64,000 nt of DNA from NCBI RefSeq assembly GCF_029840635.1, contig NZ_JAOCCU010000003.1:1-64000 (forward strand). Reading direction: 5' to 3'. A program made the translations under genes and the position numbers. Below are positions 34,841-63,831 of the stretch, piece after piece (position 1 is the stretch's first letter; every line of letters begins with the position of its first letter). The notes beneath the pieces are model-generated. The model was not told the DNA's origin. It did not search any database and saw nothing but the letters and a program-made list of their open reading frames with translations. The stretch comes from Mitsuaria sp. GD03876 (GTDB lineage Bacteria > Pseudomonadota > Gammaproteobacteria > Burkholderiales > Burkholderiaceae_C).

Positions 34841-35503
34841 TCAATGCGGGTACGCCATCCGCTTCTCCATCCACTTCTGCACCTGCTCGAAGGCGAAGCT
34901 CAGCAGCCAGTAGATCGCCGCGGCGGCCATGTAGAGCGGGAACGGCTGGAAGGTGGTCGAGATCACCTCCTTCGTCGCCAGCATCAGCTCCGTCACCGCG
35001 ATCACCGACACCAGCGAGGTGTCCTTGATCAGCGAGATCAGGCTGTTGGACAGGCTCGGCACGGCGGCGCGCAAGGCCTGCGGGCCGACCACGTAACGCA
35101 GCGTCTGCCGGCGGCTCAGGCCCAGCGACGTGCCCGCCAGCCACTGCCCCTGCTCGATCGCGCCGATGGCGCCGCGCAAGGTCTCGCTCATGTAGGCGGC
35201 GACGTTCAGCGTCAGCGTCAGGACACCGGCCACCAACGGGGAAAACTCGATGCCGATGCTCGGCAGGCCGTAATACACGATGAACACCTGCACCAGCAAC
35301 GGGGTGCCGCGCATCGCGCTCACGTACACGACCATCACCTGGTTCAACACCGGCAGCCGCAATACCCGCACCAGCGTGATCAGCGCCGCCAAGGGCAGGC
35401 CGAAGATCATCGCCATCACCGCGAACAGCAGCGTGTAGCCGGTGCCCTTCAACAGCACCGGCCAGGCCAGCTCGGCCAGGGAAAGCAACGACGGGAGGTC
35501 CAT
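34841..35503 (-). CDS. Amino-acid ABC transporter permease (HisM/TcyB type)
   Basis: A 220-aa polar-amino-acid permease with five to six helices. The N-terminal family segment MRGTPLLVQVFIVYYGLP and the cytoplasmic loop SLGLSRRQTLRYVVGPQALR (EAA-type coupling helix) are present. No ATPase or binding protein lies beside it; the only candidate binding protein in the window is at 62839-63630. Both genes carry nearly the same 28-bp leader element, which suggests they belong to one regulon and perhaps one transporter, most likely for cystine or another polar amino acid. Confidence 0.88.
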   Translation of the reverse strand: MDLPSLLSLAELAWPVLLKGTGYTLLFAVMAMIFGLPLAALITLVRVLRLPVLNQVMVVYVSAMRGTPLLVQVFIVYYGLPSIGIEFSPLVAGVLTLTLNVAAYMSETLRGAIGAIEQGQWLAGTSLGLSRRQTLRYVVGPQALRAAVPSLSNSLISLIKDTSLVSVIAVTELMLATKEVISTTFQPFPLYMAAAAIYWLLSFAFEQVQKWMEKRMAYPH

Positions 35504-57830: not shown

Positions 57831-58114
57831 TCATGTCGCCAAAAGTCGCTTTTCGCGACACGTTCCGGCGACGTGTCGCTGGCGACGACATGACCGGTCT
57901 CTCATGTCGCCAAAACTCGATTTCTGCGACACGTTCCGGCGATATGTCGCCGGCGACGACATGAGCGATCTCTCATGTCGTCGAAAGTCGATTTCTGCGA
58001 CACGTTCCAGCGATATGTCGCCGGCGACGACATGACGGGTCTCTCATGTCGCCAAAACTCGATTTCTGCGACACGTTCTGTCGACGTGTCGTCGGCAGCG
58101 ACAGACCGCGAACG
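57831..58114. repeat. Array of four 71-bp tandem palindromic repeats
   Basis: Units begin at 57831, 57902, 57973 and 58044, exactly 71 bp apart, the last diverging near its end. Each has outer arms TCATGTCG (1-8) and CGACATGA (56-63) and inner arms around GCGACACGT (25-33) and ACGTGTCGC (41-49). Copies 1 and 4 keep perfect inner arms; in copies 2 and 3 the arm reads ata/cgt with partial pairing. The last eight bases of a unit vary slightly (ccggtctc, gcgatctc, cgggtctc). The array fills the space between the DUF4124 and EF-hand genes. No CRISPR-style unique spacers exist. Function unknown. Confidence 0.9.
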
Positions 58115-58205: not shown

Positions 58206-58490
58206 ATGAAAGCAGTCCTGACCGCCATGGCCGGCGCCTTGATCGCCACCCTGGCCCTCATCGCCCTGCCCGCGCAGGCCCAGAGCGGCAAGGCCGCCCA
58301 GAAGCTCGAGGAACGCTTCGCCGCCGCGGACAAGGACCACGACGGCAAGCTGACCAAGGCCGAAGCCGAGGCCGGCATGCCCCGCCTGGCCAAGCACTTC
58401 GACGAAGTCGACACGCAGAAGACCGGCTCGGTCACCCTCGACCAGGTCCGCCAGTACGCCGCCAGCCAGCGCAAGGACCGCAAGAAGTAA
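58206..58490 (+). CDS. Small exported EF-hand protein
   Basis: A 94-aa protein with signal peptide (about 1-25, ALPAQA-Q) and one canonical EF-hand loop DKDHDGKLTKAE (12-residue pattern with Asp, Asp, Asp and Glu ligands), plus a degenerate second loop DTQKTGSVTLDQ. It probably binds Ca2+ in the periplasm. It is followed by a hairpin at 58550. Confidence 0.8.
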   Translation: MKAVLTAMAGALIATLALIALPAQAQSGKAAQKLEERFAAADKDHDGKLTKAEAEAGMPRLAKHFDEVDTQKTGSVTLDQVRQYAASQRKDRKK

Positions 58491-58549
58491 CTCGGCCATC
58501 GCTCGCGGCTCGCGGTTCGCGGGCATCCAGGCCCGAGTTCGCTCCCCCA

Positions 58550-58584
58550 CGCGGCGCCCCGCCCTCCCCGGCGTGGGCGCCGCG
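58550..58584 (+). terminator. Hairpin after the EF-hand gene
   Basis: CGCGGCGCCC (58550-58559) pairs with GGGCGCCGCG (58575-58584); CGCC/GGCG extend it inside. It lies 60 nt after the EF-hand stop. No T-run follows, but it is the only strong structure between this gene and the export operon. Confidence 0.55.
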
Positions 58585-58912
58585 CCACATTCAGACGCGA
58601 TTCACCGACATCGCCTTCGATCCGAAGGGTTGCTCGCTGACAGACATCCATCAACCAGCTTGTGGAGTCTCGCGACACGCCGCGCCATTCCCTCCGCTCC
58701 AGCCCACCCGCATTGACTGTCGGGCTCCTCACATCGAATGCAACGCTGACTCGATGAGGGCGGCGGCGTTCACAAACGGGCGGGGCAGCACGATTCCCTG
58801 GCCGGATCAATCCTCATTCGGAGCCCCCTCCGCGCCCTCGCCGCGACCGCCGCCAACGGCAAAAGAATCCGCTCCATCGCAACCCAACAGCGCCGACGGC
58901 GACCAGCGGATC
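58585..58912 (+). promoter_or_regulatory. Upstream region of the peptide-export operon
   Basis: A 328-nt stretch without a supported gene. TTGACT at 58713 is a good -35 match, but no clear -10 lies 16-18 bases on. An in-frame ATG at 58754 would add 53 low-complexity residues to the HlyD-type protein and is considered unlikely. The operon promoter is expected here. Confidence 0.3.
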
Positions 58913-60193
58913 ATGTTTCGAGCGGCAGTCACGCAATCCCAGCAAGCCTCCTGGATGGGCACCATCCGGGTCGCGCAACGGCCGGCCTTCGGTGTCGTCG
59001 CCGGCATCGCGCTGGTGCTGGCGCTCGCGCTGATCGCCTTCGCGCTGCTCGGGCAGGTGTCGCGCAAGTCCCGCGTGCCGGGCCTCTTGATGCCGGTCGG
59101 CGGCCTGCTGCAGGTCGCGTCGCCGTTGGCCGGACAGGTCCAGGCGGTGCTCGTCGGCGAAGGCGACGCGGTCCGCCGCGGACAGCCGCTGTTGCGGGTC
59201 CACAGCGAACGGCAGGTCGACGGCGGCGACATGACCGCGCTGACCCTGCGCGCGATCCAGGCCCGCCGGGACAGCCTCGCGACCGAACGCCGCCTGCAGG
59301 CCCGGCAATCGGAGGAGCGCCGCCAGACGATCGACGACCGGCTCGCCAGCCTGCGCGCGGAGACGTCCCAGGCGCGCGAGGAACTGGAGATGGTTCGCCA
59401 ACGCGTCGAGCTCGCCCGGCGCAGCCGCCAGCGCTACGTGGAGCTGGCCTCGCGCGGCTTCGTGCCGGAGACGCAGGCGCAGCAACGGGACGAGGAGCTG
59501 CTCGACCTGCAGGCCCGCGAGCGGGGCGCGCAGCGATCGATCGAGACGCTGACGCGGGAGGCGAAGACGCTGGAGGCGGAGCTGGTCGCCCTGCCGACGA
59601 CGCTGGCGACCACGATGGCGCAGCTCGACCGCGGGGTCGCGCAGCTCGAGCAGGAACGCGCGGAACTCGAGGCCCGCACCGGCGTCACCGTCACCGCGCC
59701 GCGCGACGGCCACGTCAGCGCGCTACCGCTGCACGCGGGGCAGGCGGTCCTCGCCGGACAGACGCTGGCGACGCTGACGCCCGGGGCCGAAACCCTCTTG
59801 CCCAGCGCCGGGCCGCGCCTCGTCGCCCAGCTCTACGCCCCCAGCCGCACGGTCGGTTTCATCCAGCCCGGCCAGCCGGTATGGCTGCGCTACGCCGCCT
59901 ACCCGTACCAGAAGTTCGGCATGGCCAAGGGCGAGGTCGCCCATGTGAGCGCCACGCCGATCGCGCCGCAGGACCTGCCCGCCGGCCAGGGCCAGGCGCT
60001 GGTCAGCGCGGCGCAGGCCAACGAGCCGCTGTACCGGATCGACGTGCGGCTGGACCGCCAGGACATCGCCGCCTACGGGCGCCCGGTCCCGCTGCGCGCC
60101 GGCATGGCGCTGGACGCGGACGTGAGCCTGGAGCACCGGCGCATCTGGGAATGGCTGCTGGAGCCGCTGCTGGCGACGACCCAGCGGCTCTAG
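58913..60193 (+). CDS. HlyD-family membrane fusion protein of the peptide exporter
   Basis: A 426-aa periplasmic adaptor: membrane helix about 27-52, then a beta-barrel/lipoyl half-motif (GLLMPVGGLLQVASPLAGQVQAVLVGEGDAV), a long coiled coil with LATERRLQARQSEERRQTID and ELEMVRQRVELARRSRQRYV, and a second lipoyl half (VTAPRDGHVSALPLHAGQAV). It matches the bacteriocin-secretion HlyD type. It heads an operon with a double-glycine peptide and a C39 ABC exporter, and would link that exporter to an outer-membrane TolC protein encoded elsewhere. MFRAAV at 58913 matches family N-termini; a recognisable ribosome site is weak. Confidence 0.82.
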   Translation: MFRAAVTQSQQASWMGTIRVAQRPAFGVVAGIALVLALALIAFALLGQVSRKSRVPGLLMPVGGLLQVASPLAGQVQAVLVGEGDAVRRGQPLLRVHSERQVDGGDMTALTLRAIQARRDSLATERRLQARQSEERRQTIDDRLASLRAETSQAREELEMVRQRVELARRSRQRYVELASRGFVPETQAQQRDEELLDLQARERGAQRSIETLTREAKTLEAELVALPTTLATTMAQLDRGVAQLEQERAELEARTGVTVTAPRDGHVSALPLHAGQAVLAGQTLATLTPGAETLLPSAGPRLVAQLYAPSRTVGFIQPGQPVWLRYAAYPYQKFGMAKGEVAHVSATPIAPQDLPAGQGQALVSAAQANEPLYRIDVRLDRQDIAAYGRPVPLRAGMALDADVSLEHRRIWEWLLEPLLATTQRL

Positions 60194-60281
60194 CGACGCA
60201 ACCCCTTTTCCGGCGGCGAGCGATCGACGCCGGGGAAACGGCGGCCGACCGATTTCGGCCTTTCACCTGAGGATGTTTGAC

Positions 60282-60422
60282 ATGCAAGAACTGACCCAAG
60301 ACGAGATCGACCAGGTCCACGGCGGCATCTCTCCCTTCTTCGGCTACCTGCTGTACTGCGTGGCCGCCTATGTCCTGGACAAGATGGGCGACTTCTTCGA
60401 GCCCGATCCGCGCGCCGAATGA
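60282..60422 (+). CDS. Double-glycine leader peptide (bacteriocin-like), cargo of the exporter
   Basis: A 46-aa small gene, easily missed. The leader MQELTQDEIDQVHGG fits the double-glycine consensus exactly: Leu at -12, Glu at -8, Ile at -7, Val at -4 and Gly-Gly at -2/-1. Cleavage after Gly15 would release a 31-residue peptide (ISPFFGYLLYCVAAYVLDKM onwards), hydrophobic with a single Cys and an acidic C-terminus ending EPDPRAE. It is unlike known class IIa bacteriocins. TGAGGA lies eight bases before the ATG. It follows the HlyD gene by 88 nt and precedes the C39-peptidase exporter that would cleave and secrete it. Role (bacteriocin, signal or microcin) is unknown. Confidence 0.8.
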   Translation: MQELTQDEIDQVHGGISPFFGYLLYCVAAYVLDKMGDFFEPDPRAE

Positions 60423-60504
60423 TCGGCAGACGCCGGCCGGGGCCCCCGCCCGGCACCCCTGGCGCGGCCCGGCGGCCGACGGACCGTGCCTTGATCCTTG
60501 ATCC

Positions 60505-60536
60505 GCGGGCGCTTCACCTCTCGGTGCGGCGCCCGC
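60505..60536 (+). terminator. Hairpin between the peptide gene and the exporter gene
   Basis: GCGGGCGC (60505-60512) pairs with GCGCCCGC (60529-60536), with CACC/GGTG pairing inside a TCTC loop. A pyrimidine tract (ctcttccc) follows. In peptide operons such a hairpin often lowers expression of the exporter relative to the peptide, so this is probably an attenuator. Confidence 0.55.
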
Positions 60537-60615
60537 CTCTTCCCACCGCCGTCCCGATGCCCTGCCTGCCGCCGCCCGGCTTCCCGCCGCCTCGCCTTTC
60601 CCCGCCACGACGTCC

Positions 60616-60699
60616 ATGAAACGCACCCTGCTGACCGCCCTGCTGGCGCTCCTGTCGATCGCCGTCCTGCAGGCGTTCGCCACCTGGCCCGACCGATGA
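60616..60699 (+). CDS. 27-aa membrane peptide coupled to the exporter gene
   Basis: A 27-residue frame (MKRTLLTALLALLSIAVLQA then FATWPDR) that encodes one positively charged N-terminus and one hydrophobic helix. Its TGA overlaps the ATG of the ABC exporter (ATGA), so translation of the exporter may depend on it. No Shine-Dalgarno is obvious before its ATG. It could be a genuine small membrane protein of the exporter or only a coupling leader. Confidence 0.5.
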   Translation: MKRTLLTALLALLSIAVLQAFATWPDR

Positions 60700-62810
60700 G
60701 CCGCCTCGCCCCCCTCCTCCAGGCGGAGGCCGCCGAATGCGGCCTGGCCTGCCTGGCGATGGTCGCCGCCGCGCACGGCACCTCGGCGACGCTGCCGGAG
60801 CTGCGGCGCCGCTTCCCCGCCGCGCTGAAGGGCATGCGGCTGCAGGATCTGCTCGACGTCGCCGCCGGGCTGGGTTTCTCCGGCCGGCCGTTGAAGCTGG
60901 AACTGACCCAGCTGCGCCAGCTGACGCTGCCCTGCATCCTCCACTGGGACATGAACCACTTCGTCGTGCTGACGAAGGTCCGCGGCGACACCGTCACCCT
61001 GCTCGACCCGGCCGTCGGCGAGCGCCGGCTGAGCCTGGACGAGGTCTCCCCGCATTTCACCGGCGTCGCCCTCGAGCTGACGCCGAATGCCGAGTTCAAG
61101 CCCGCCACCCCGCCGCCGCGCGTGTCGTTGCGCGCGCTGACCGGCCGGGTGCTCGGGCTGCGCGGCGCGCTGCTCCAGATCCTGCTGGTGGCGCTGGTGC
61201 TGGAGCTCTTCGCCATCGTCGCGCCGCTGTGCAACCAACTGATCGTCGACGACGTCCTCACCTCCGGCGACCGCGACCTGCTGAAGGTCCTGGTGATCGG
61301 CTTCGGCCTGCTGCTGCTCACGCAGACGGCGCTGGGCCTGGCGCGCTCCTGGATGCTGATCCTGCTGACACAGACCTTGTCGCTGCAGTGGCGGGGCAAC
61401 GCCTTCGCCCACCTGCTGCGGCTGCCGGTGGCGTTCTTCGAGAAACGCCACCTCGGCGACATCACCTCGCGCTTCGGCGCCGTGGACGCGATCCAGAAGA
61501 CGCTGACCACCGCCGCGATCGAGGCGGTGCTGGACGGCGTCATGGGCGTCGCCGCGCTGGTCATGATGCTGGTCTATGCGTGGCAACTGGCGCTGGTGGT
61601 GATCGTCGCCTGCGCGCTGTACGCGCTGCTGCGCTGGGCCGCCTACCGGCCGCTGCGCGACGCGTCGGCCGAGCGCCTGGTCGTCGCCGCGCGCGAAAGC
61701 ACGCACTTCCTCGAGACGCTGCGCGCGATGACGCCGCTCAAGCTCTTCGGCCGCGACCAGGAGCGGCGCAGCCAATGGCAGAACCTGATCGTCGAGGTGC
61801 AGAACCGCGACGTCCGCACCGCGAAGCTGACGATGGCGATGGGGGTGGCCAACACCTTCGTCTTCGGCATCGAGAACCTGCTGGTGCTGTACCTGGGCGC
61901 GTCGCTGATCCTGGACGGCCAGCACGGCGGCGCCGGCGCGGCGGCGAGCGTCATGACGGTCGGCATGCTGTTCGCCTTCCTCAGCTACAAGACCCAGTTC
62001 ACCGGCCGCGTGTCGGCGCTGATCAATTACGTGGTCGAGCTGCGGATGCTGGGCCTGCACGCCGAGCGCCTGGCCGACATCGCGCTGGAGCCGCCGGAGC
62101 CCGACGAGGCGGTGGCCTGCGACCTCGCGCACCTGGATGCCAGCCTGGAGCTGCGCGACGTCGGGTTCCGCCACGGCGACCGGGAGCCGTGGCTGCTGCG
62201 GCACGCGAATTTGGTGGTGCCGGCGGGCGAGAGCCTGGCGATCACCGGGCCGAGCGGCTCGGGCAAGACGACGTTGATGAAGCTGCTGCTGGGCCTGCTG
62301 GAGCCGGTCGAGGGCGAGGTGCTCTACGGCGGCATCCCGATGCGGCAACTCGGGCTGCGCAACGTGCGCCGGCGGATCGGCACGGTGATGCAGGAGGACG
62401 TGCTGCTGACGGGCTCGCTGGCGGACAACATCGCGTTCTTCGACGCGCGGCCGGATGCCGAGCGGGTGCAGGCCTGCGCGGCGCTGGCCGAGGTGCACGA
62501 GGACATCCGCCGGATGCCGATGGGCTACCAGACGCTGGTGGGGGACCTGGGGAGCGGGCTGTCGGGCGGCCAGAAGCAGCGGGTGCTGCTGGCGCGGGCG
62601 CTGTACTGCGGGCCGCGGATCCTGGCGCTGGACGAGGCGACCAGCCACCTGGACGTGCCCTGCGAGCGGGCGGTGACGGCGAACCTGGCGCGCTTGCCGG
62701 TGACGCGGCTGGTGATCGCGCACCGGCCGGACACGATCGCCGGCGCGGAGCGCGTGGTGACGCTGGCGGGCGGCCGGCTCGACGAGAGACCGCGGATCGC
62801 CGCGGGCTGA
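60696..62810 (+). CDS. C39-peptidase ABC exporter (PCAT/CvaB type)
   Basis: A 704-aa peptidase-containing ABC transporter. The C39 domain is complete: Gln9, Cys15 in QAEAAECGLACL, His88 (WDMNHFVVL) and Asp104 (LLDPAVGER), so it should cleave double-glycine leaders. Six membrane helices follow (about 145-430), then an ATPase with Walker A GPSGSGKTT (518-526), signature LSGGQKQR (622-629), Walker B ILALDEAT (642-649) and the switch His676. With the HlyD-type protein and the 46-aa peptide it forms a self-contained leader-cleaving export system. The start ATG overlaps the small peptide stop. Confidence 0.92.
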   Translation: MSRLAPLLQAEAAECGLACLAMVAAAHGTSATLPELRRRFPAALKGMRLQDLLDVAAGLGFSGRPLKLELTQLRQLTLPCILHWDMNHFVVLTKVRGDTVTLLDPAVGERRLSLDEVSPHFTGVALELTPNAEFKPATPPPRVSLRALTGRVLGLRGALLQILLVALVLELFAIVAPLCNQLIVDDVLTSGDRDLLKVLVIGFGLLLLTQTALGLARSWMLILLTQTLSLQWRGNAFAHLLRLPVAFFEKRHLGDITSRFGAVDAIQKTLTTAAIEAVLDGVMGVAALVMMLVYAWQLALVVIVACALYALLRWAAYRPLRDASAERLVVAARESTHFLETLRAMTPLKLFGRDQERRSQWQNLIVEVQNRDVRTAKLTMAMGVANTFVFGIENLLVLYLGASLILDGQHGGAGAAASVMTVGMLFAFLSYKTQFTGRVSALINYVVELRMLGLHAERLADIALEPPEPDEAVACDLAHLDASLELRDVGFRHGDREPWLLRHANLVVPAGESLAITGPSGSGKTTLMKLLLGLLEPVEGEVLYGGIPMRQLGLRNVRRRIGTVMQEDVLLTGSLADNIAFFDARPDAERVQACAALAEVHEDIRRMPMGYQTLVGDLGSGLSGGQKQRVLLARALYCGPRILALDEATSHLDVPCERAVTANLARLPVTRLVIAHRPDTIAGAERVVTLAGGRLDERPRIAAG

Positions 62811-62838
62811 GGTCGGGCGGCCGGGCCGGCGCCGGGGC

Positions 62839-63630
62839 TTACTTGTTGTCGATCGGCTTGCTGACGTCGCGCTCGAACCACTTGGTCGAGATCTTGGCGT
62901 AGGTGCCGTCGGCCTGCAGGTCGGCCAGGGCCTTGTCGATGGCGGCCTGGAACTTCGGGCTGCCCTTGCGGAAGGGGATGGCGTTGGTGGCGGGGTCGCC
63001 GATGGCGGCGCCGGCCTTCACCGGGAGCTTGGTCTTCTCCTTGAGGTAGGGGATGAGCAGGCTGTCGTTGAGGGCGGCGTCGATGCGGCCGGTGGCCAGG
63101 TCCTGGAGGTACTCGGTGGCACCGGGATAGGTGCGCACTTCGACACCGTCCCAGCGCTTGGCGAGGTCGGCGAAGTTGCTGCCCTGGCCGACGCCGATCT
63201 TCTTGCCCTTGAGGTCGGCCGGCGTCTGGAGCTTGCGGGTCTCGTTGGCGCGGACGATCAGCTGGGGGTAGGAGGTGACGTAGGGGGCGGAGAAGTCGAA
63301 GGTCTTGCGGCGCTCGTCGGTGGCGGCGACCTGGTTGACGATGACGTCGTACTTGCCGGCCTGCAGCCCGGCGAGGATGCCGCTCCACTCGGTGGTGGTG
63401 AATTCGGGCTTGACGCCGAGCTTGGCGGCGATGGCCTTGGCGATGTCGACGTCGAAGCCGTCGAGCTGGCCCTTGGGGTCCTTGAAGTTGAACGGGGGAT
63501 AGGTGCCCTCGACGGCGACGCGCAGGGTGCCGCGGGCCTTGATGTCGTCGAGCAGGTCGGCGGCGTGGGCCGCGAGGGAAGCGCCGGCGAGCAGCGCGGC
63601 TGCAATCAGGGAAATGCGGAGAGCTTTCAT
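62839..63630 (-). CDS. Polar amino-acid ABC transporter substrate-binding protein
   Basis: A 263-aa periplasmic binding protein of family 3 (SBP_bac_3). Signal peptide about 1-23 (SLAAHA-AD). Mature protein starts DDIKARGTLRVAVEGTYPPF and contains GFDVDIAKAIAAKLGV and the DVIVNQVAATDERRKTFDFS segment, a pattern of cystine/polar amino-acid binding proteins (FliY/TcyJ-like). GAGGGG precedes the ATG at 63630. The permease at 34841 shares its leader element. No permease or ATPase gene lies beside it. Confidence 0.9.
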   Translation of the reverse strand: MKALRISLIAAALLAGASLAAHAADLLDDIKARGTLRVAVEGTYPPFNFKDPKGQLDGFDVDIAKAIAAKLGVKPEFTTTEWSGILAGLQAGKYDVIVNQVAATDERRKTFDFSAPYVTSYPQLIVRANETRKLQTPADLKGKKIGVGQGSNFADLAKRWDGVEVRTYPGATEYLQDLATGRIDAALNDSLLIPYLKEKTKLPVKAGAAIGDPATNAIPFRKGSPKFQAAIDKALADLQADGTYAKISTKWFERDVSKPIDNK

Positions 63631-63704
63631 GGGACCCCTCGTTGTTCGTAGGAAGGGGCGATGTTGCCACCGTCCTTCAGAACTCTGGTGATATGCATAT
63701 GCAT
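63627..63704 (-). CDS. Leader uORF (25 codons) overlapping the binding-protein start
   Basis: On the minus strand an ATG at 63704 (within a perfect ATGCATATGCAT palindrome) opens a frame MHMHITRVLKDGGNIAPS, seven more residues, and a TGA that overlaps the binding-protein ATG (ATGA). The 28-bp conserved leader element lies within it and encodes DGGNIAPS; the other copy encodes GDGNIAPS. This is the pattern of a regulatory leader peptide with translational coupling. No strong ribosome site precedes the ATG, so it may be weakly translated. Confidence 0.45.
   Translation of the reverse strand: MHMHITRVLKDGGNIAPSYEQRGVP
63652..63679 (-). promoter_or_regulatory. 28-bp leader element, copy 2 (before the binding protein)
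   Basis: Identical to the element at 35537-35564 at 25 of 28 positions. The hairpin around the GCAA loop is kept with a G-T pair and one A-C mismatch replacing standard pairs. It lies 22 nt before the binding-protein ATG and inside the uORF. See findings. Confidence 0.6.
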
Positions 63705-63716
63705 CGGGCACAAAGG

Positions 63717-63740
63717 AAAACGGCCGCTTTCGCGGCCGCC
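63717..63740 (-). terminator. Minus-strand terminator-like hairpin upstream of the binding-protein leader
   Basis: On the minus strand GCGGCCGC-GAAA-GCGGCCG is followed by TTTTCCTTTG, a good intrinsic terminator with a GAAA loop. The gene to its right reads the other way, so this would stop a transcript started within about 100 nt, which suggests an attenuator in the leader of the binding-protein gene or a small RNA between 63740 and 63830. Confidence 0.55.
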
Positions 63741-63831
63741 TCCTCATTTGCGTCTTGGGACCTGACGTCCGTCCGAGGAGGGAACTGTCAGCTCATGAGG
63801 TCCAAGCGCGTACCGGCGGAGCGTAACACGC

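Follow-up and report, generated by a model that had tools for sequence, protein, structure and literature searches.

The present study concerns a 64,000-nucleotide stretch of DNA from Mitsuaria sp. GD03876 (contig NZ_JAOCCU010000003.1, positions 1 to 64,000, forward strand; hereafter the window), which belongs to a genome of 6.36 Mb in 94 contigs and carries four consecutive open reading frames (ORFs), all on the plus strand, for an HlyD-type adaptor, a 46-residue peptide, a 27-codon product and a C39 exporter. These ORFs, recovered at the positions given for them in a preliminary description made from the sequence alone, probably form a cassette for leader-cleaving type I export, of the class II microcin or bacteriocin kind, present in the window strain in a derived and perhaps disarmed version, a reading that we hold with moderate confidence. 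Its features are the following:

58913..60193, plus strand: HlyD-type membrane fusion (adaptor) protein, 426 aa; PF13437 at 50.8 bits (cut-off 22.2) and PF16576 at 32.0 bits
60282..60422, plus strand: double-glycine (GG) precursor of 46 aa, comprising a 15-aa leader and a predicted 31-aa mature part, ISPFFGYLLYCVAAYVLDKMGDFFEPDPRAE; recognised from the leader consensus and from relatives
60282..60326, plus strand: leader, MQELTQDEIDQVHGG, with predicted cleavage after Gly15; invariant in five aligned precursors except at positions 2 and 7
60616..60699, plus strand: 27-codon ORF, probably a partner-gene stub (signal peptide and a few codons); from start-region comparison
60696..62810, plus strand: C39 peptidase-containing ABC exporter (PCAT), 704 aa; C39 peptidase PF03412 at 114.6, ABC membrane domain PF00664 at 144 and ABC ATPase PF00005 at 106.5 bits, all over cut-off

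Judged from its pattern of sequence change, the 46-codon ORF is a genuine cargo gene, because differences in its leader are mostly synonymous while the core diverges. A homologue search of 60 genomes, including the host's own (G000) and all 15 other genomes of the genus, recovered clear precursor homologues (E 2.0e-4 or better) in G004 (two copies), G006 and G011. All four sit between an orthologous hlyD gene and an orthologous C39 gene, so that a homologous small gene beside orthologous exporters, which the preliminary description had set as one test of its proposal, is present in three other members of the genus. The orthologous exporter is found in six of the 16 genus genomes and the precursor family in four. 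Over the 15 leader codons, the ten pairs formed by the five precursors show 3 to 6 synonymous against 0 to 2 amino-acid differences per pair, which suggests that the leader is translated and constrained. In the mature part Ser17, Cys26 and Gly36 are kept in all five precursors and the remainder diverges; the G011 peptide has a second Cys at its end, while the mature peptides of the other relatives have a single one.

The leader of the window precursor has Leu at -12, Glu at -8, Ile at -7, Val at -4 and Gly at -2 and -1 (L4, E8, I9, G14 and G15 for all but the Val). The PCAT substrate consensus is L(-12)xxxE(-8)L(-7)xxxxGG (PMC6959990), and the sole departure from it is the conservative Ile for Leu at -7, in agreement with the double-glycine leader originally proposed. 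A strict form of the leader pattern matched one of the 244 window ORFs of 30-120 aa, namely this precursor, and none in 20 copies of the window generated by a third-order Markov model, each containing approximately 536 such ORFs. The start at 60282 is favoured over that at 60273 by a GAGG lying 9 nt before the ATG and by alignment with relatives, and the frame is coding-like, with a third-position GC content (GC3) of 0.83. Pfam and PHROGs gave nothing for the precursor at E<=1, and NCBIfam gave two matches, both below cut-off and in the leader; TIGR03949 (class IIb bacteriocin, lactobin A/cerein 7B) scored 14.9 bits against a cut-off of 21.5, over residues 2-19, mostly leader. The cargo thus matched no family tested; the preliminary description had noted that it resembled no bacteriocin known to its author. 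The mature peptide has a net charge of -3, compared with +4 for the relatives' cores of 28-34 aa, and a best hydrophobic moment of 0.44 against 0.34-0.45 in the relatives. An AlphaFold model of the 46-mer alone gave one helix spanning residues 6-35 (mean pLDDT 77), which, coming from a single sequence, is weak evidence.

Among the relatives, the G006 precursor matched MccV weakly (12.7 bits, cut-off 27), and the second G004 peptide scored 21.2 bits (E 2.4e-4, residues 4-26) against NF038035 (lactococcin G-alpha/enterocin 1071A), below the cut-off of 37. A precursor profile (A2) searched against 399 family genomes gave strong matches only in G000 and G004, G006 and G011 being evidently outside that sample, and weaker matches (E 2e-4 to 0.01) at C43 in the host's own genome, at another place in G004, and in G178, G260 and G319; of these weaker ones, C43 was the one examined further. 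Matches at E 0.02-1 in the 60-genome search, with three of the eleven places inspected (C43, G056 and G014), were not counted as family. A DNA pattern for the leader end QVHGG had 11 matches in five of the 16 genus genomes, against one for the backward control; six of these were the five cassette precursors and C43, and the remaining five had no N-terminal leader and were taken as chance.

The exporter is a PCAT, with an N-terminal C39 domain carrying the Cys-His-Asp triad, a transmembrane domain, and a nucleotide-binding domain with intact ATPase motifs. Cys15, His88 and Asp104, the residues on which the preliminary description had based its intact peptidase, are invariant together with Gln9 in an alignment of 12 exporters, the window's included, as are Lys524 (Walker A), LSGGQ at 622-626, Asp646/Glu647 and His676. 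Similarity to the structurally determined relatives PCAT1 (4ry2, 7t54) and ComA (8hf4) extends across residues 9-697, the C39 domain included (E 2.5e-84 and 6.4e-82). Both are exporters of Gram-positive bacteria and differ from the window system in having no HlyD adaptor and no outer membrane to cross. The adaptor, correctly assigned to the HlyD type from the outset, is 63-77% identical to its orthologues in G004, G006 and G011; its start was chosen by comparison with the MFRAAV/MFRSEV starts of relatives, and a longer in-frame start at 58754 is possible. An outer-membrane channel would be available from elsewhere in the genome, since PF02321 (TolC family) has 59 matches there; the same genome holds five further C39 loci. 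An NHLP/Nif11-type system was rejected, as the exporter fell far under the NCBIfam cut-off for the NHLP export system (TIGR03796; 473.2 against 853.3 bits) and the cassette holds no modification enzyme. The exporter also scored below cut-off for the peptide cleavage/export ABC transporter TIGR01193 (306.3 against 523.85 bits).

The window cassette differs from those of its relatives in the slot between precursor and exporter. In G006 and G011 this slot holds a signal-peptide gene of 247-248 aa that ends in an overlap of its stop with the start of the exporter gene; G004 carries two precursors and two partner genes; in the window it is the stop of the 27-codon ORF that overlaps the exporter start codon (ATGA). 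The partner proteins of the three relatives (approximately 243-261 aa) are secreted by prediction, and the four align over their full length, at 79, 32 and 35% identity to the first. The 27-codon ORF begins MKRTLLTALLALL, and the G006 and G011 partners begin MKRTLFTGLLGLIG and MKRTLFTGLVGLIG. Its first 66 bases were compared with 831 candidate start regions, each given by an in-frame ATG within the first 60 codons of a called ORF in the window or the genus loci. This set contains the partner genes, counts overlapping loci twice and has 92 members that resemble signal peptides. The best scores were those of the G006 partner (32.1) and the G011 partner (26.9), followed at 21.8 by the EF-hand gene; plain identity is 44 and 43 of 69 bases. 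Both G004 partners have different starts, and neither ranked. Because the two best of the 831 regions belong to the very genes that occupy the partner position in G006 and G011, the 27-codon ORF is most likely the stub of a secreted, distantly DUF2987-like partner gene of approximately 247 aa, and we read it as what remained after a deletion, namely the signal peptide and the end that overlaps the exporter start. On the same ground the independent membrane peptide that the preliminary description had seen at 60616-60699 was rejected as first choice. Its statement that a modification enzyme and a classical immunity gene are absent holds for the window strain in so far as neither a modification enzyme nor an immunity-size gene lies beside the cargo. 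As far as these sequences go, the absence of the partner gene is a property of the window strain, G005 and G010 and not of the whole family, because G004, G006 and G011 hold a partner in that slot.

The G006 partner and one G004 partner had no match in Pfam or NCBIfam. A partner profile (A3) matched 12 of 299 family genomes, G004 included, with 12 places in 11 genomes outside the genus. When three of the outside proteins were compared with DUF2987 (PF11205, cut-off 25), G265 scored 25.2 and G218 19.5 bits, and G270, the closest of the three, gave nothing. No GG candidate was found in 1.5-kb flanks at eight of the 12 outside places, a set that includes G177 C7 and G270 but not G075, G073, G212 and G155.

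Comparison of the six exporter-bearing genomes (window, G004, G006, G011, G005 and G010) indicates that the exporter is conserved while the cargo slot turns over, because one exporter is accompanied by peptide and partner in G004, G006 and G011, by a peptide and a stub in the window, and by a different GG peptide in G005 and G010. The six exporters are 77-84% identical and form one supported clade (100/100), within which the place of the window strain, and so the order of losses, is not fixed. In G005 and G010 only 27 nt separate the end of the hlyD match from the C39 match, the precursor and partner slot genes thus both being gone, and a different GG precursor, with a shared leader (FEELTTQEIALVSGG) and differing cores, lies directly downstream of C39. 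A conserved exporter and leader with a fast-changing core would agree with selection of the cargo for novelty, as happens in bacteriocins.

According to the favoured reading, the C39 domain would bind the precursor via its leader and cleave it behind Gly15; the product, a helical peptide of 31 residues with a single Cys, would pass from the exporter through the HlyD adaptor to a TolC-family channel encoded elsewhere. The relatives' +4 cores look like membrane-active helices, and these peptides with their conserved Cys may be membrane-acting antibacterials, for which the DUF2987-like partner would serve as a periplasmic protector or helper. In the window strain the partner gene appears to have been cut to a 27-codon stub and the peptide to have turned acidic, leaving a perhaps disarmed cassette; the window version is taken as derived because the partner was lost and the peptide charge changed. 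Genes, motifs, homology, synteny and the turnover of the cargo are seen in the sequences themselves, whereas cleavage, export, toxicity, the role of the partner and disarming are inferred from them. A broader proposal is that these cassettes form a genus-wide family of exchangeable peptide weapons, in which a soluble secreted DUF2987-like protein replaces the usual membrane immunity protein and its loss accompanies charge inversion, the cassettes being armed in G006, G011 and G004, disarmed in the window and re-armed in G005 and G010. We regard this as speculative and rather unlikely.

Several points weigh against a bacteriocin-like cassette. Antibacterial activity, expression and secretion are putative, and class II microcins are longer than the 31 aa of this peptide. 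The acidic window core is unlike a classical membrane-active peptide, though its hydrophobic moment matches the relatives. The precursor family was found in this genus only, in both the 60-genome and the 399-family-genome searches. As for the partner, likeness between signal peptides can be convergent, and no C39 or HlyD match was found in flanks of approximately 7 kb around its two best relatives outside the genus (G177 C7 and G270). It is a secreted protein with no obvious membrane anchor, and known immunity proteins tend to be inner-membrane proteins with transmembrane helices and 51-216 aa (PMC9746304).

Four other explanations, which are not mutually exclusive, were considered. GG peptides that leave the cell through PCATs serve communication between cells as well as competition (PMC7018657), and the peptide might be a pheromone or other signal sensed by siblings and not a toxin. 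A paralogous C39/HlyD locus in the host's own genome, with a LuxR-type regulator and a peptide repeating PKGTW, lends this some weight, and loss of the partner would then matter less. We nevertheless consider a signal unlikely, since no gene for a regulator or receptor was seen within the EF-hand and substrate-binding borders of the window or of the six cassettes examined, and the cores differ in length, charge and sequence between sister species. Equally unlikely in our estimation is that the cassette's own cargo is decaying and that the exporter is kept for other leaders, chiefly that of the unlinked GG peptide at G000:C43:5168. The leader of this peptide likewise ends in QVHGG, its core is rich in glycine, and directly downstream lies a small gene with a hydrophobic-looking product; the window exporter is intact while the partner has been lost and the charge of the core reversed, and G005 and G010 retained the exporter after losing the slot genes. 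The 46-codon frame is, however, open, with coding-like GC3 and a perfect leader, while the likeness of C43 lies mostly in the leader and the genome has five other C39 loci.

A self-directed peptide, with a role in autolysis, envelope or biofilm like that of the Neisseria Nap peptides or cyanobacterial GG proteins, appears less likely still. Mature NapA, NapB and NapC are short (36, 16 and 31 aa) and cationic, carry GG motifs, and promote autolysis and not the killing of competitors (PMC11798529), and four small secreted GG-motif proteins are involved in Synechococcus biofilm formation (PMC4997328). There is no sign here of regulation or phase variation, however, and the Nap island has a FapF-like channel, with no mention of HlyD in the text searched (PMC11798529). 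A chance ORF with a leader-like start and no product is strongly disfavoured: the ORF is short and the genome GC-rich, but the Markov copies gave no pattern match, the leader is conserved with mostly synonymous change, and the position is kept in three relatives.

The combination of membrane fusion protein (MFP), PCAT and GG peptide is a long-known plan, as in McbABC (PMC2761928) and the class II microcins (PMC9746304), and the candidacy for an undescribed system put forward in the preliminary description is therefore not supported. Of its overall interpretation, the type I export cassette with leader cleavage and the reality of the 46-aa cargo remain; the membrane peptide and the undescribed system do not. 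The new parts are the cargo family and the DUF2987-like partner. McbABCI of Moraxella catarrhalis likewise unites an MFP, a C39 ABC exporter and a short GG precursor, McbC, whose mature part resembled no known bacteriocin (PMC2761928). It differs in gene order, since both export genes are followed by mcbC and, overlapping with it, mcbI for immunity, of 74 aa (PMC2761928); in the window the adaptor and exporter genes flank that of the peptide, and nothing of the size of an immunity gene is left. The class II microcins known from Enterobacterales share the GG/GA precursor, a PCAT with the Cys/His/Asp triad, an MFP and TolC (PMC9746304). In the window an MFP and a PCAT similarly adjoin the precursor and a TolC-type channel is encoded in the genome, but the mature part has 31 aa only and the precursor no Pfam match. 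The window cassette would work like a class II microcin system and is not filed as one, because between its precursor and exporter lies only the 27-codon stub in place of an immunity-size gene.

The nap island of Neisseria gonorrhoeae is a horizontally acquired island encoding short cationic GG peptides of 16, 31 and 36 aa (PMC11798529), which the +4 peptides of the relatives (28-34 aa) resemble. It differs in its NapP, FapF-like channel NapF, NapI and NapH (PMC11798529), the window peptide being acidic and accompanied by an HlyD adaptor. As the Nap peptides are described as self-lytic rather than competitive (PMC11798529), toxicity to rivals is not to be assumed here. CdzABCDI of Caulobacter also uses type I secretion, for two small secreted toxins thought to be unmodified; these are glycine-zipper proteins of 84 and 86 aa, with a small transmembrane immunity protein, CdzI (PMC5380434), in contrast to the glycine-poor 31-aa window core. 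A search of open-licence PMC full text, with subscription papers outside its scope, found among the papers listed none on the cassette, the cargo family or the DUF2987-like partner. The string QVHGG occurred in one paper, on sea-slug neuropeptides, and DUF2987 in one, on disinfectant tolerance.

The cassette is bordered by two genes, given here for context only:

58206..58490, plus strand: secreted EF-hand protein (PF13405), left border of the slot
62839..63747, minus strand: amino-acid ABC substrate-binding protein (PF00497, 159.7 bits), right border, convergent with the cassette

The EF-hand gene is the left border common to the window, G004, G011, G005, G010 and the cassette-less G002, with no match within the G006 stretch examined. 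The substrate-binding gene borders the cassette in the window, G004, G006, G011, G005 and G010, and is also the right border in G002, where an unrelated 636-aa ORF lies between the two genes and no hlyD or C39 match was found; at E 1e-100 the substrate-binding gene had no match in G007 and G008. In another seven genomes of the genus this gene adjoins, without a cassette, a gene that we take to be permease-like. Its window counterpart lies at 34841-35503, 27 kb from the substrate-binding gene, and the region was therefore rearranged, or a 27-kb stretch inserted, in the window lineage.

No sigma-70-like promoter was found in 58400-62900, and the only terminator-like site in the region, directly after the exporter, is at chance level (shuffles averaged 1.3), so that the promoter and terminator scan neither shows nor excludes a single operon. 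The 193-nt gap after the peptide gene was considered as the place of a terminator or RNA structure and rejected, having no terminator-like site and a fold z-score of -0.63. Upstream of the EF-hand gene, at 57831-58108, lies a tandem array of 3.9 copies of a 71-bp unit, with inverted-repeat ends recognisable by eye (TCATGTCG...CGACATGA). Its 26-base core (<=3 mismatches) occurs at four places in the host's own genome, all within this array. In G010 and G005, too, peptide frames that look similar by eye precede the EF-hand gene.

Layout was further surveyed in 80 named C39 relatives with a looser leader pattern on both strands, some contigs ending near the exporter. The closest named loci are from Proteobacteria, including several Burkholderiales such as Limnohabitans and Massilia (the host's own and very near genomes may be excluded). 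An hlyD match lies upstream in the same direction in 62 of the 80, at no more than 229 nt from the exporter in 56 and at more than 600 nt in six. At least one looser-pattern match within approximately 4.5 kb was found in 38 of the 80; some are clearly chance, including arginine-rich minus-strand frames, and matches and misses are both uncertain. In five relatives with a gap of 634-901 nt, GG precursors occur in L083, L087 and L155, followed before the exporter by an 89-aa ORF with a predicted membrane segment in L087 and by a 66-aa ORF without one in L155 (crude count); the L112 gap holds two multi-transmembrane proteins and no GG candidate, and that of L152 belongs to a longer exporter frame. 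By a crude hydropathy count, the genus loci L066, L068 and L072, and also L087, have a small ORF with one or more predicted membrane segments between GG peptide and exporter, a slot where immunity genes would be expected. The same slot holds a TraB/GumN-like protein in L069 (45.7 bits, cut-off 26.8) and, in L070, a secreted protein whose matches all fell below cut-off. The window layout is thus uncommon, not unique.

Other peptide loci were observed in passing. The unlinked GG precursor at C43 in the host's own genome (L026:5168-5824), with its glycine-rich core and a QVHGG leader end as in the window peptide, is followed by a 113-aa hydrophobic-looking protein that could be an immunity protein; over 15 kb of this locus, tblastn with the exporter gave ATPase-domain matches only and no C39 part. 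A C39/HlyD locus with a small GG peptide containing PKGTW occurs at C1 of the same genome (L028:7710-12203) and in three other genomes of the genus (L073, L074 and L075), with PKGTW repeated in L028 and L075 and a LuxR autoinducer-binding-type regulator (PF03472, PF00196; L028 scanned), and looks like a peptide signal system. Upstream of C39 in L078, L081 and L082, from other genomes of the genus, lie several tiny GG precursors with predicted mature parts hardly longer than PQVTND, PQLTND, PQITND or PEVQND plus a few residues, at a locus that holds a large protein kinase/TPR protein (only L082 scanned); the product would be a very short, repeated secreted peptide. No paper was found for PKGTW or PQVTND in open-licence PMC full text. 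The hlyD-C39 gap of G009 (L067) encodes a 498-aa protein matching SelO (PF02696, 25.8 bits, cut-off 22.8), to which a 553-aa protein upstream of C39 at C45 of the host's own genome (L029) is similar by appearance; such neighbours of peptide exporters are unexpected.

By the count of a 2022 survey, only 10 class II microcins have been validated by experiment, most of them from E. coli (PMC9746304). The present family lies elsewhere in the Proteobacteria, and its sister species hold a full, a stripped or a replaced cassette, so that cargo turnover and the fate of the partner could be tested in a few strains. If the DUF2987-like partner does protect, it would represent a soluble, extracytoplasmic kind of immunity and a first function for such proteins.

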